Shown: positions 31,513 through 38,459 of the stretch, piece after piece | How positions within the stretch are numbered: position 1 is the first letter of the stretch | Layout: every line of letters starts with the position of its first letter | Origin: Periconia sp. R9002 | Lineage: Eukaryota > Ascomycota > Dothideomycetes > Pleosporales > Periconiaceae | Length of the DNA: 64,000 nucleotides | Assembly: GCA_023627715.1 (NCBI GenBank) | Contig: JAMAHW010000070.1 | Coordinates: forward strand, 161,335-225,334 | Direction: 5' to 3' | Translations under genes and position numbers: made by a program | Notes under the pieces: generated by a model | What the model was told of the DNA's origin: nothing | The model's database searches: none | What the model saw: the letters and a program-made list of their open reading frames with translations, nothing else

Positions 31513-32821
31513 CTAACTCCCCGGCGTCCATTCCTGTCCAATCGCCTTCCTAAATCCTCCCTCAAACAGCCCAATCGTCTCGTTCATCCCCATGCCACTC
31601 GCAATCGCCAACTGCAACATAATCCTCGCCTGAATGACATGCAAAAACCCACTCTTCGCATAAGTCGGTGTCACGCTCGGTGAACTCGGGCCATGCGGAC
31701 TCCTTGTGCCCACCACAATCTGCAACCCCTTGTCCAGTGCCTCTTTGATCTGCGCGCTCCCGTTTGGAATACCTCCGTTCCCCGTCCCGGCAATGACCAC
31801 GCCGTCGGCGCCGTTCGCGTGCGCGTCGAGCACTAGCTTACCGTCGAACTCGCGAGCCGCATAGAGTATGTCGACTTTGGGGAGTGCAGGGAACGTAGAG
31901 TGGTTTGACACCTGCGCGAGGGAAAACGTGTGCTTTGACAACGGTTGACTGGGACTATTGAAGTAGACGGGCAAACTGTTAATGAAGATGCCCAAATCGC
32001 CGCCTGAGGTGCTCCAAAACGCATCCGGGTTCGTGCTGTGAAGTTTAGTGACCCAGAACGCGGACAAGATCCTCGCGTTGAACGCTACAAGTGCGCCGCG
32101 GTTTTTGGATTCGCTGCTAGCAGCTAGCATCACTGCGTCGAAAAAGTTTGCGTCGCCGTCGAAACTAAGATGCGTCCATGGTCGCATAGACCCGACGCCT
32201 ACGACGGGTTTCCCGCAGTTGATGAGGAGGTCCATGAGGAAGGCGGTCTCCTCGAGGGAGTTGGTGCCGTGGGTGAAGATGGCGCCCTAACAAAACACGC
32301 CATTCAGCTACAGAGCTACATATAACTGAAGCGGAATGAAAGCACACTAACATCAATATCGCTATCGGGTGAACAGAGAGCGTCGTGTGCGAATCGCGTC
32401 ATGTTCATCACGAGGGCGTCGTTGGTGCCGGTCGAGCCATTGTCCTCTGTTGTCCAATTCGACACTGCCAACTGTGTGTGATTGAGCAGGTAGGGATTGC
32501 GTGCAATGATGTCTTCCCCGGTGATGCTTAGTTGCCCGTATTGGGTGTCATCTAAAGCTCCATAGATGGAGCCACCGGAGATGGTACCGCCAGTGAAAAG
32601 GACGCTGACGGGTTAGCTGGCTCAACCTTGTTCATGGTGAGCATGGATGGATGGACTCACAGAATCTTGGGCAGCGTACTATTTCCACCGAGCCACTTTA
32701 GACCAAGTCGCTCACTCGCCGTCGTGACATTCTGGCGTGCTTTATTCCGATGAAGAAGAGCTGGACTTGTAGCTTCGGACACTGCCACCAGAGCTGCAAT
32801 CGCGAAATCGTGGAACCGCAT
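31513..32821 (-). CDS. L-asparaginase, type II, probably secreted
   Basis: The model has exons 32661-32821, 32352-32604 and 31513-32286 (395 aa). It hydrolyses asparagine to aspartate and ammonia. A short hydrophobic N-terminus (MRFHDFAIAALVAV) suggests secretion. The first catalytic Thr is in LFTGGTISGG (Thr61). The second motif reads FTHGTNSLEETAF, so Thr146 is present but the next residue is Asn147, where bacterial and yeast enzymes have the catalytic Asp. The Lys region is represented by SAFWVTKLHSTNPDAFWS, and the C-terminal part (VVIAGTGNGGIPNGSAQIKEA and TYAKSGFLHVIQARIMLQLA) is intact. The Asp to Asn change may lower activity or mark a subfamily. The exon 1 frame starts further upstream, but the ATG at 32821 gives the best N-terminus. 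Confidence 0.88.
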
Positions 32822-33729: not shown

Positions 33730-34207
33730 TCAATTCCACCCGATAATTCCTTCCGCAACAATCCTATCCCCCTTTCGCGACCCAGCCACAATAGAAATTC
33801 TCCTTCCTATAATTCCCGTCTCGCCCACCCCAAGATCGAGTCTCCGCGTAAGATTGACAACCGAATCCTGGTGAGGGTCGCTGAGGGAAAAGGAAAAAAA
33901 GGGATCGATTGATGAAAATGGCTGCGTGTTTGAGGCTTCGAGATTACCGTCGCGACTGAACCGAGGTTAGCAGGGGTGAGTGATTGGAGAAGTATTCTTA
34001 CTGTATGACGAGGCGATGCGCGTTAGTGGAAAGAGGATTGATTGGGTCTAGGCCGTGGAATTGGATTTGTGTTCCCATGGAGTCGATTGTTGTGGAGTTC
34101 GAAAAGAGAACTCGTATTTCAGTATCTGAGTCTGTTTTTTGGAGAGTGGGTCGGAGTACAGCGATTGATCCTCCTTGGCTGACTCGGGATGAATAGCCGT
34201 TGCACAT
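33730..34207 (-). CDS. Small Cu/Zn-SOD-like protein lacking most metal ligands
   Basis: The model has exons 34002-34207 and 33730-33880 (118 aa), with donor GTAAGA and acceptor CAG; the start is the ATG at 34205-34207. An upstream in-frame ATG at 34381 is possible. The fold resembles Cu/Zn superoxide dismutase: strand GSIAVLRP, then QIQFHGLDPINPLSTNAHRL aligning with the turn before the copper-binding HxH, and an ending GIIGRRISIV...GDRIVAEGIIGW like the SOD ending GRTVVVHA...R.ACGVIG. Of the HxH pair only one His remains (LVIHD, His69). The zinc loop is absent, and the His expected in the GIIGRRISI strand is replaced. It is about 35 residues shorter than a normal SOD. It is therefore probably not an SOD enzyme; binding or scaffold roles are possible. 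It lies about 300 bp downstream of a Mn-SOD gene on the same strand. Confidence 0.6.
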
Positions 34208-34503
34208 GATGGTGTGGAAAAGTGGGTGAGTGATGAAGCGACAGAAGGAAAGTTGAGAGCGGCGAAGGGCGTAACTATAGAGATTGAAGTTTGGAGGAAA
34301 AATGCGGGAACTTTGAATGCAACTTTTAAACTGTGAAAAGAAAATGAAACATTTCGAGGCTGATTTGAGGTATTTGAGCATATTTGAGTGAGTACTAGAA
34401 TGGCGCTTAGCTGGCGGGCCCGTGCACGATTTACGCAGGACAAGAGCAAAACCATTAATGTACTCAGAGATGCATATTCGATAAACTGCGGATCAATATT
34501 GTC

Positions 34504-35434
34504 TTAGATGGAAGCCTTTAGTGCTTTGAAGACATCTGCGCGAGTGCCTACGAAACGCTCCTCGGCTGTCTTCCAGTTGATCACGTTCCAGATATTTTCC
34601 ACATACGCCGCTTTGCCATTCAGATACTAATAGCTAGTCAGTTTCACTTTATCTAAAGATCGTCTTGCGTTGAGTATAGCATAAGAATGGGAAAAGGATA
34701 ACGCTGAAGTAGAGAGGAAACAGTATGGTGGGAATTCACTCTTACCTGTAGATAGTACGCATGCTCCCACATATCGATTCCAATAATAGGTACTTCACCT
34801 TTTCCTACAATTGGATCTTGATCTTTGGTGGTGACAATTGCTAGCCTTCGCTCCTTGCCGGTTTCAACCTTTACAAGCCATCCCCACCCGCTGCCTTGAA
34901 TTCCCAACAAAGCTGCTTTGAATGCCTCGCGGAATGCTGCCTCATCGCCCCATGTCGCCTTGATCTGTGACACAAGCGACGGCGCTGCGGATGACTTGGT
35001 CTCGGCACCGGCAGGCGCGAGGTTTTGCCAGAAAAGGGAGTGGTTGATGTGTCCACCTGCGTTGAATTTGATGGCGGCCTGAAGTGAAACCTGGGTAGGG
35101 ATGTCGGAGGTGCGCACTGCTTCGGCTTGTGTTTTCAAGGCAGCATTGAGGTTGGAAATATATGTTGCGTGGTGCTTAGAATGGTGAAGCTCCATGATCT
35201 GAGCCGATATGTGTGGCTCTAGTGCCTGGGGGGCTGGTTAATACGAGCACGAGGATCATGGAAATGGGAGATGGAATTGGAATGACTAACATTGTAGGAA
35301 TAAGGGAGTGCCGGGAGTTTGTGTACTGGGGCAGACATTGCTTCGTATTGAAAGGGTTGCTGATCGGGTTGGGCTGTTGACAGGATGAAGAGGAGGGGAG
35401 ACAGAGCAATGGAGAGCTTAATCATGTTCCGCAT
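34504..35434 (-). CDS. Mn/Fe-type superoxide dismutase with signal peptide
   Basis: The model has exons 35291-35434, 34746-35225 and 34504-34626 (248 aa). It converts superoxide to hydrogen peroxide and oxygen. The four metal ligands are present: His62 (MELHHSKHH), His110 (GGHINHSLFW), and Asp199 and His203 (GIDMWEHAYYLQY). The GGH.NH.LFW context and the DQDP segment favour manganese. The N-terminus is a hydrophobic signal peptide (MIKLSIALSPLLFILSTA) rather than the Arg-rich mitochondrial presequence usual for fungal Mn-SOD, so an extracellular or wall location is likely. The mature part begins near HKLPALPYSYN, the normal SOD start. It is in tandem with the SOD-like gene and both face the same way. 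Confidence 0.9.
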
Positions 35435-35910: not shown

Positions 35911-36315
35911 TCAGCGAAATGAACGGGAATGCAATATCTCCGCCACCGACTTGTAACCCCCCGACCAACAGTTATCAATGATCGCACCGAAATACAGGCC
36001 GCTAGTTGACGGAAACATTCCCTGCCTAAAGAGATGCTCAACTTGATCGTCTTCGATATCATCGTAAGGTCTTTTTCCGATGCTAATCTCATAGATCAGA
36101 CTCCCCATGGCGAAGATTTCCCAGTCAATTGATATATCAACTGGTTCTGTGGTTGCCATTCTTCAAGTACGGAAATAAAAGGCCGGCGTCTGTGATTTGT
36201 AGGCATGGCAGAATGCCTTTATGCTCGCCAAGACGCATGTATATCTCTTTCTCTTCGATCTAGAAGCTCGACTGATTCTTTCTCCAAATCCCGATACTCT
36301 GCAGTAACTGCATCG
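35911..36315 (-). pseudogene. Protein kinase relic with the catalytic core deleted
   Basis: Three pieces of one kinase-like protein lie in order on the minus strand. The first (about 36240-36315) reads YRDLEKESVELLDRRE. The second is in another frame (about 36150-36245) and reads IYMRLGEHKGILPCLQITDA and then FPYLKNGN, the end of a kinase N-lobe. The third (35911-36159) reads EPVDISIDWEIFAMGSLIYE and continues with YDDIEDDQVEHLFRQGMFPS, the end of the C-lobe. The whole middle, with the HRD and DFG motifs, is missing, and the frame changes at least once. The family is the expanded fungal kinase group often found next to host-interaction genes. The third piece alone could still be transcribed as an 82-aa protein. 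Confidence 0.75.
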
Positions 36316-36878
36316 TCGCATCCGTCAAGATGGAAAGCCAAAGGGGCTTTGAGTACCTAGATGGAAGCTACCGTCTATGTATCTATATACACTGCTAACC
36401 ATGACGGGATTAGCGGCCGAAGTGGGGTAGTTTACCCGCTGTAACGGTTTCGACGAGAACCAGCAATCAATTCGTCAGCTTATGTACCATCCGATAATGA
36501 ATCTGCACAAGAAACTTAGTTATCATGACAAGCTCAAGCAATAGGGATCTTCTCTTGAACATTTGAAGATTTGGAAACGTACTTGTCTCTCCACATCAAT
36601 TCATGTGCGTGTATTTATGTTGCGCTTCCTTCAGGATTGTGCCAGAGAGGGTATAGCAGGCCTGTGCTTTCCAGCCCTAGTCTATTTCGCTTGTTAGACC
36701 AATTATTCACGGTCCCAATGACGCCATATCCAAGCTTCTTCACATCAAAGCCTTTTCTCATCCACCTTCTTGACCGGGACGAACCAACAAAACTCTGACC
36801 GATTATAAGCTTCGCCATGCTTTTCTCTTCTTCAGCCATCCTCTTGGGCCGTTGCTTGCCTCCTACACCAGAAGCATC
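36316..36878. other. Divergent spacer before the permease
   Basis: Holds the permease promoter and upstream sequence of the kinase relic. No gene is seen. Confidence 0.4.
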
Positions 36879-38459
36879 ATGTCCGCTGCACGCGATGCCG
36901 AGAAGGCATACGATGGCTCTCCGCATGCCTTGGAACACACCCACTCCACCTTTGTCAATGAAGATCGCCTCCGCCGCTCCCTTTCCGCCCGACAAGTTCA
37001 GATGATTGCTATCGGCGGGACCATTGGCACAGGTCTTTTTCTCGGCACTGGGAAGGCTTTGGCGACGGGTGGTCCTGCATCTCTCCTCATCTGCTATGCT
37101 ATCGTCGGTGGAATCGTCTTTTTCACCATGCTTGCCCTCGGCGAGATGGCCGCTTTTGTTCCCGTCGCCGGTTCCTTTTGCACCTTTGCCGGCCGCTACG
37201 TTGACGAGTCGCTGGGATTCGCCATGACGTGGAATTACTGGTTTAACGATGTCGTGTCCACCGCCGCTGATCTTGTCGCCCTGCAGCTGCTCGTGCAGTA
37301 TTGGACCGATACGTTTCCGTGGTACGCTTTGGGCATTATCGTTTGGGTGCTAATCGTACTGGCCAACATTATCAACGTCAAAGCCTACGGCGAGCTGGAA
37401 TACTGGCTTTCTCTGCTCAAGGTCGTGACCATCATCATATTCATCATCTTGAGCATCGCTGTTAATGCGGGAGGAAACAGAGGATATGGATACATTGGAG
37501 GGAAGTTCTGGACGGTTGGCGATGCACCCTTTGTCAAGGGAATCGGAGGGTTTGCTTCTGTCTTCGTAACAGCGTCATTTGCCTATGGTGGAACCGAAAG
37601 CATTGCCATCACGGCGGGCGAGACTCGTGACCCTGCCCGCACTCTTCCGCGAGTCGTAAAGAACGTCTTCTGGCGAATCCTGCTCTTCTACATTCTTTCG
37701 GCGCTGTTGATCGGTTTGAACATTCCCTACAACTACCCGGGCCTCAGCACCAAGTCCAGCCGCACGTCGCCCTTCACGATCGCGTTCCAAATGGCAGGTT
37801 CCAAAGCTGCTGGTTCCTTTGTCAATGCCGTCGTGCTTACCAGTGTCATATCCGCCGGAAATCATGCGCTCTACGCCGGCTCCCGCCTCCTTTTCACTCT
37901 CGGAGCCAACGGACATGCGCCCAAAGTTTTCACCAAGCTCACCCGCTACCAGGTTCCTTGGGTGTCTGTCCTAACCACCAGCGTCCTTTCTATTGTCTTC
38001 TTTTCGCTATCTTTTGCGGGTTCAGGAGAGGTCTGGACGTGGCTGCAAAACATAGTGGGAGTTTCGAATCAACTGAGCTGGATCAGCATCGGCATCGCGT
38101 CGCTGCGGTTCAGAGCCGGCCTCAAAGCCCAGGGAAAGGAGCATCTGCTTCCTTTTAAAAACTGGACGTATCCTTATGGACCCATCATCTGCGTGGTTTT
38201 GAACACGTTTATTGTCCTCGTTCAAGGGTGGTCGGCTTTCAGTCCTACGTTCGCTTCCGTGGATTTTGTGAGCTACTATTTGGAGATTCCCATCTTCATT
38301 GTCATGATGATTCTCTGGAAACTGATTAAACGGACCAAGTTCCAGAGAGCGAGTGAAATGGACTTGGAGACGGATGTGTACACGAAGGACCAGATGGAGC
38401 CTGAAGAGAAGGGATGGAAGGCCAAGGGGAAGAAGATCGGCACGTGGTTCTGCTTTTAA
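36879..38459 (+). CDS. Amino-acid permease (YAT/AAP family)
   Basis: This intronless 526-aa transporter has about twelve membrane segments. It carries the amino-acid permease signature near the first helix (AIGGTIGTGLFLGTGKAL), the GEMAAFVPVAGSFCTFAGRY segment after helix 2, and YGGTESIAITAGETRDPART in the conserved cytosolic loop. The N-terminal tail is polar and acidic; the tail ends in WFCF, similar to the aromatic-Cys ends of yeast permeases that are palmitoylated. It probably imports amino acids, perhaps basic ones, across the plasma membrane; specificity cannot be read from the sequence. The ATG at 36879 was chosen because the open frame further upstream lacks an ATG. Confidence 0.93.
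   Translation: MSAARDAEKAYDGSPHALEHTHSTFVNEDRLRRSLSARQVQMIAIGGTIGTGLFLGTGKALATGGPASLLICYAIVGGIVFFTMLALGEMAAFVPVAGSFCTFAGRYVDESLGFAMTWNYWFNDVVSTAADLVALQLLVQYWTDTFPWYALGIIVWVLIVLANIINVKAYGELEYWLSLLKVVTIIIFIILSIAVNAGGNRGYGYIGGKFWTVGDAPFVKGIGGFASVFVTASFAYGGTESIAITAGETRDPARTLPRVVKNVFWRILLFYILSALLIGLNIPYNYPGLSTKSSRTSPFTIAFQMAGSKAAGSFVNAVVLTSVISAGNHALYAGSRLLFTLGANGHAPKVFTKLTRYQVPWVSVLTTSVLSIVFFSLSFAGSGEVWTWLQNIVGVSNQLSWISIGIASLRFRAGLKAQGKEHLLPFKNWTYPYGPIICVVLNTFIVLVQGWSAFSPTFASVDFVSYYLEIPIFIVMMILWKLIKRTKFQRASEMDLETDVYTKDQMEPEEKGWKAKGKKIGTWFCF

Follow-up and report, generated by a model that had tools for sequence, protein, structure and literature searches.

A predicted superoxide dismutase-fold pseudoenzyme encoded beside a second manganese superoxide dismutase in Periconia sp. 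R9002

The gene pair and the SOD-like family

The window analyzed here, a stretch of 64,000 nucleotides on contig JAMAHW010000070.1 (C70) of the fungus Periconia sp. R9002, carries the gene of a small protein resembling Cu/Zn superoxide dismutase (SOD), located downstream from the gene of a manganese SOD (Mn-SOD). Judging from predicted models, the small protein apparently belongs to a class of SOD-fold pseudoenzymes that is new, and its gene is repeatedly linked to that of a Mn-SOD. We tentatively propose a cytosolic SOD pseudoenzyme which acts through its dimer face, perhaps in the switching between copper and manganese SODs. The family, the predicted fold, the loss of metal ligands, the conserved face and the linkage in several genomes are supported by computation.

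Both genes were found on the minus strand, at the coordinates given in an earlier note on this DNA, and the motifs GIIGRRISIV and GDRIVAEGIIGW that it had singled out are present in the small protein. The features of the pair, in window coordinates, are as follows:

33730-34207, minus strand: gene of the SOD-like protein, a predicted pseudoenzyme of 143 amino acids; two exons, 34207-34002 and 33955-33730 including the stop codon
33956-34001, minus strand: intron of the SOD-like gene, 46 nucleotides (GTAAGA...GCTAAC...CAG), splitting the codon of the conserved His69 between CA and T
33881-33955, minus strand: coding stretch RDGNLEASN...FSLS, left out of the earlier model of 118 amino acids
34208-34503, minus strand: intergenic stretch from the Mn-SOD gene to the SOD-like gene, 296 nucleotides
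34504-35434, minus strand: gene of the second-type Mn-SOD, 248 amino acids; three exons, 35434-35291, 35225-34746 and 34626-34504
35339-35434, minus strand: residues 1-32 of the Mn-SOD, a hydrophobic N-terminal extension resembling a signal peptide (MRNMIK / LSIALSPLLFILS / TAQ)
35336-35338, minus strand: internal ATG (Met33) of the Mn-SOD, located where the cytosolic-type protein would start (MSAPVHKLPALPY)

The length of 118 amino acids given previously had to be corrected to 143. The shorter form uses an acceptor at 33880 and an intron of 121 nucleotides, and was rejected: it drops 25 residues kept in most relatives, which retain RDGDL and the following segment after the conserved histidine, whereas the 143-residue form can be aligned with the relatives over its whole length. 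RDGDL is likewise missing at this place from two database models (P0036 and P0046). The 46-nucleotide intron (34001-33956) is supported because the sequences of several unspliced relatives are interrupted there, in the codon of the conserved histidine, and end in VVIQ or WVVIQ. When the 42.9-Mb source genome was searched with a relative, the match fell on these two exons and on no other place among the best candidates, which were the ones scored.

The 143-residue form was matched by 43 proteins at E up to 1, the best being a Periconia macrospinosa protein (79% identity, 100% of the query covered, E 7.9e-67). For both genes of the pair the nearest proteins come from Periconia (Pleosporales). 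A profile search with the SOD-like family gave 197 proteins at E up to 10, and species were considered for the 120 of these that were listed. Among the 120, the family occurs in Dothideomycetes, Orbiliomycetes and Pezizomycetes; the classes of five species were looked up, and the other listed species were placed in the classes to which we take them to belong. In a quick tree of 63 relatives and the window protein, in which two long branches were flagged, each of the three classes was set apart by a single branch (support 78, 99 and 98), which is the pattern to be expected under descent with no exchange among classes. The 26 relatives that were read are 129 to 166 amino acids long, which, as for the 143 residues of the window protein, leaves room for the barrel only.

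No Pfam family was found above the cut-off for the SOD-like protein or its relatives, and NCBIfam gave no match for four relatives. In particular, neither the two splice forms of the window protein nor any of 10 relatives matched PF00080, with E values up to 10 admitted. The sequence search of the PDB gave no relative of the protein; as with Pfam and NCBIfam, there were weak, chance-like rows only. Two family records, P0041 and P0094, bear the UniRef name superoxide dismutase (the names are incomplete), and the Pyrenophora member P0025 is labelled oxoglutarate iron-dependent oxygenase, a naming problem. No description of the family was found in the literature searched, which took in few subscription papers.

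Fold, metal sites and conserved face of the SOD-like protein

Template-free predicted models of the protein have eight strands arranged as the SOD-type Greek-key barrel that the earlier note had suspected. Two second-look comparisons with the PDB were made, and all 50 rows listed in each were SOD-type or CCS folds, with a root-mean-square deviation (rmsd) mostly near 3 angstrom; yeast CCS ranked first in one and third in the other, and human CCS was matched as well. The sequence register agrees. In the model, loop IV is cut to about 20 residues, and strands 120-129 and 132-143 are linked by about two residues, which makes for a short loop VII.

The metal sites are largely gone from the whole family. 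A histidine at the place of SOD1 His48 is conserved in 58 of 63 relatives (the next-commonest histidine column reaches 21/63), so that the single remaining copper-site histidine reported earlier holds family-wide. The place of His46 is taken by Val, Ile or Leu in 59/63 and that of His120 by Met, Val, Leu or Ile in 61/63; two proteins of the 121 compared, among which 110 show the strand-7 motif, have another copper histidine in the His120 position. The zinc loop, described as missing, is shortened: in the 63 relatives no histidine for zinc is conserved in loop IV, and the cysteines of the Cys57-Cys146-type disulfide have disappeared. Because three of the four copper ligands, the zinc ligands and the disulfide cysteines are lost, activity as a SOD enzyme is very unlikely, and the sequence predicts no superoxide dismutation, in line with the previous description of the protein as probably inactive.

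The residues M1, C2, G12, G13, L109, G117, G120, R121, G142 and N144 (P0001 numbering) are invariant over the 63 relatives. We take G120, R121, G142 and N144 to be the places of SOD1 Gly114, Arg115, Gly150 and Ala152 in the dimer face. For 14 positions which we assume to form the SOD1 dimer face, mean conservation was 3.79 bits, against 2.10 for the 119 others. This value was equalled in none of 20,000 random draws, in one of 20,000 when only strand positions were drawn, and in none of 131 circular shifts.

All 63 relatives start with Met-Cys, and no other cysteine column exceeds 21/63. In the model of the protein, the predicted local distance difference test score (pLDDT) is under 50 at residues 1-3 and 5-8. 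A start that is weakly modelled yet strongly conserved suggests a short functional motif. This start could be the active part of a thiol or oxygen sensor: removal of the methionine would expose the cysteine, its oxidation or modification would alter stability or partners, and the barrel would be a carrier. We regard this as unlikely. The constancy of both residues, in spite of the low pLDDT, agrees with it, as does an arginyl-transferase domain (ATE_C) encoded in the genome; no cysteine dioxygenase of the PCO/ADO type was matched there, in a search that matched no control genome either, so that absence is not implied.

Among known proteins, domain II of CCS offers a precedent: it is a SOD barrel without a working copper site that docks to SOD1, carries the SOD1 dimer face and is intracellular, features in which the SOD-like protein would resemble it. 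In contrast to CCS, the SOD-like protein has neither the Atx1-like domain I nor the C-terminal CxC domain III, and a separate CCS-like gene, named by reading and containing VCSCSGKTVWEE, lies on contig C8. Domain II of yeast CCS is not readily recognized as SOD1-like from its sequence, and insect CCS can serve as a helper in folding without copper transfer, according to a review (PMC13017621; this and the other papers are cited from excerpts).

With SOD1 itself, whose ordinary copy is on contig C97, the protein shares the eight predicted strands, IIGR and GVIG-type motifs at matching places and the dimer-face segments; it differs in the lost ligands and cysteines, in lacking most of loops IV and VII and in the failure to match PF00080. 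The fungal Cu-only SODs, such as Candida albicans SOD5, also have a short loop VII and no zinc site, but these are extracellular proteins with the copper site retained (PMC13017621), whereas the SOD-like protein has no intact copper site. Descent from Cu-only SODs was considered and rejected, since the profile comparison gave no special similarity (11 of 60 shuffles were as good). A Cu-only-type SOD is encoded on contig C48 (L008), apparently with two tandem SOD domains and a C-terminus like that of a glycosylphosphatidylinositol-anchored protein. An engineered human SOD1 without loops IV and VII (PDB 4bd4) was the second Foldseek row. Going by the model, this loop-stripped apo barrel, which is man-made and monomeric, seems to have a natural counterpart in the family.

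The part of the 2026 review available treats three eukaryotic derivatives of the Cu/Zn-SOD fold, namely CCS, Cu-only SODs and CSRP (PMC13017621). The SOD-like family, present in at least three classes of Pezizomycotina, fits none of them.

The neighbouring Mn-SOD and its linkage to the SOD-like gene

The neighbour matched both Mn-SOD domains, Sod_Fe_N and Sod_Fe_C, over their cut-offs (PF00081, E 4.9e-32; PF02777, E 4.4e-34) and is 84% identical to a Periconia digitata protein. The genome's other Mn-SOD, on contig C6, has 53% identity to it over 195 residues and an N-terminus that looks mitochondrial by eye; the neighbour is thus a second Mn-SOD, distinct from the mitochondrial-type one. A Sod_Fe_C match was also seen on contig C90 (L004), in a divergent frame of greater length whose start looks mitochondrial; we take it to be perhaps a mitoribosomal SOD-like subunit.

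The previous remark that fungal Mn-SOD is normally mitochondrial needs correction: Beauveria, Candida and several other fungi have two Mn-SODs, one cytosolic and one mitochondrial (PMC3261187). The neighbour resembles the cytosolic Mn-SODs (Beauveria BbSod2, Candida SOD3) in being a second Mn-SOD beside a mitochondrial-type one, and differs from them in the signal-peptide-like extension added upstream of the cytosolic-type start; the likeness is one of type, and orthology is not implied.

The signal peptide attributed to this Mn-SOD corresponds to a hydrophobic N-terminal extension common to many relatives. Among 120 listed relatives, 60 have an extension of at least 30 residues and 37 do not; the remaining 23 did not show the anchor motif. 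Of the 60 extended proteins, 59 have a methionine in the final 12 residues of that extension, near the cytosolic-type start. In many Pleosporales the signal-peptide-like extension is followed by an A-S-E-Q-Q-P-F-like junction. The simplest reading of these sequences is that secreted and cytosolic forms would be made from two starts, an arrangement that may be widespread beyond the Pleosporales. Relatives in Fusarium and Trichoderma have a hydrophobic extension and a methionine at the same place, so that this feature is not limited to Pleosporales.

For the SOD-like protein, the N-termini of the 63 relatives showed a peak 11-residue hydropathy of 0.25 to 1.85 (median 0.84), compared with 1.67 to 2.65 for 12 Mn-SODs, with slight overlap, and no signal peptide was evident by this measure. 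The earlier note had suggested a joint extracellular role, with the small protein as partner or sensor of the secreted Mn-SOD. Since the protein shows no evident signal peptide, and all 63 relatives start with Met-Cys, we consider such a role very improbable. The close linkage and the extension of the Mn-SOD would fit it, as would the SODs found among antioxidant enzymes in the secretomes of four Pleosporales, whose type was not seen in the excerpt (PMC4951024). A Diplodia superoxide dismutase found in the medium was counted as intracellular by its authors (PMC2944164), and no SOD words were found in a further secretome paper (PMC3517617). If the Mn-SOD is also made from its internal methionine, the two proteins could meet in the cytosol. 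A role of the SOD-like protein as sensor or partner would be a matter of interpretation.

The linkage of the two genes was gauged from the longest contig listed for each protein record, the same size in both being taken as a shared contig. Of 18 names keyed, one was dropped since it joined two strains (Pyrenochaeta DS3sAY3a and strain MPI-SDFR-AT-0127), leaving 17 species. Comparison of the named rows gave identical sizes in 14 of these; the exceptions were Paraphaeosphaeria sporulosa, Didymella pomorum and Bipolaris sorokiniana. Gene content in Dothideomycetes is kept per chromosome with order and orientation shuffled (mesosynteny; PMC3219968), and shared contigs of megabase size are therefore weak evidence of linkage. 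The informative ones are the small contigs, of 36,240 (Polyplosphaeria), 65,403 (Clohesyomyces), 183,535 (Lojkania) and 218,593 bases (Didymella exigua). In addition, the SOD-like protein of Boeremia exigua shares a 28,196-base contig with an unnamed Mn-SOD.

Consecutive gene tags were found in Neocucurbitaria (Nn.00g033620/033630) and in Bipolaris sorokiniana (GGP41_010162/010163), where the longest contigs differ (90,614 for the Mn-SOD cluster, 2,177,878 for the SOD-like protein). A Curvularia clavata model, P0131, runs the Mn-SOD straight into the SOD-like protein, with order and strand as in the window. The linkage thus recurs in other genomes. The two findings that the earlier note would have accepted as refutation, a fold other than an SOD-type barrel and a lack of linkage in relatives, were therefore not obtained.

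Possible role of the pair

The small protein would be a catalytically dead descendant of Cu/Zn SOD, a free-standing and probably cytosolic eight-stranded barrel. Its metal loops IV and VII would have been cut back and its ligands lost, with retention of the face used for pairing by SOD1 and also by CCS domain II with SOD1. It would most likely act through this face by docking to protein partners: SOD1 or CCS, which it would regulate or chaperone, or a second copy of itself. The Met-Cys start, invariant in the family, would serve as a short functional tail. The neighbouring Mn-SOD, which is independent of copper, may exist as secreted and cytosolic forms, and the gene pair most plausibly would serve the choice between copper- and manganese-dependent superoxide removal. 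We infer a docking partner, a link to copper, a switch and co-regulation from these features. That the neighbour is a Mn-SOD suggests a connection with a switch between copper and manganese SODs like that of Candida, where SOD1 is repressed and SOD3 induced in low copper (PMC5198983).

Several observations weigh against this proposal. Foldseek, run with the first model only, listed nothing with an E-value of 0.001 or lower, and the rmsd of the SOD rows was 5.6 to 6.4. The hhalign comparison with SOD1 was modest (probability 22.7), that with SOD1 and CCS together was weaker (5.4), and that with CCS alone, for which two CCS domains were used, gave 2.2. The interface list was applied after the conserved motifs had been noticed, so the conservation of the face is support and not proof; part of it may come from the barrel core. 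Within the face, the places of SOD1 Phe50 and Ile151 hold mostly Asp and Trp, and docking to SOD1 itself is therefore not assured. TTTGCTC, which we take to be a yeast-type copper-response word, occurs at 34450 (minus strand) in the intergenic stretch; it is one of 12 in the window and no significance is claimed. With a coarser interface taken from a review, consisting of strands 1 and 8 together with the early zinc loop (PMC13017621), two of 131 shifts were as high. Finally, many Sordariomycetes have the Mn-SOD, and no Sordariomycete name is among the 120 listed of 197 SOD-like matches.

The weak Foldseek scores and the second-look rmsd mostly near 3 angstrom, together with the lack of a Pfam or NCBIfam family and of a PDB sequence relative, could mean that the protein is another small beta-barrel, placed near SOD by AlphaFold and Foldseek and not derived from it. 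This is hardly probable: every row of both second looks was SOD-type or CCS, the sequence register agrees and two members keep the second copper histidine. In the profile comparison with CCS, one of 60 shuffles was as good, though the match to the two CCS domains used was weak.

The occurrence of the Mn-SOD in many Sordariomycetes, with no name of that class among the listed SOD-like matches, would also agree with a passenger pair, the pseudo-SOD having a cellular role of its own and the adjacency to the Mn-SOD reflecting merely that small inversions have not separated them. Mesosynteny holds genes on one chromosome, and equal megabase contigs say little (PMC3219968). On the other hand, mesosynteny randomizes gene order and orientation; the two genes nevertheless lie together on contigs of 28, 36, 65, 184 and 219 kb, have consecutive tags in two species and keep order and strand between the Curvularia clavata model and the window. 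We regard the passenger explanation as rather unlikely.

To return to the pseudoenzyme with a conserved dimer face, its fullest version would reduce the protein to the docking face and the Met-Cys tail, and would make it part of a two-gene module with the Mn-SOD that switches superoxide removal between copper and manganese by docking to SOD1 or CCS; we are doubtful of it in this specific form. If docking to SOD1 or CCS were true, SOD1 would have, apart from CCS, a regulator dedicated to it, and the linkage to the Mn-SOD would offer, in filamentous fungi, a genetic module on which a switch between copper and manganese SODs such as that of Candida (PMC5198983) could be tested.

A short frame at 35911-36159 (minus strand) resembles by eye the end of a protein kinase domain; it has no Pfam match and is perhaps a gene remnant. 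The genes flanking the pair, which have no evident connection with SOD, encode by Pfam an asparaginase (31513-32235, minus strand) and an amino-acid permease (36852-38459, plus strand).
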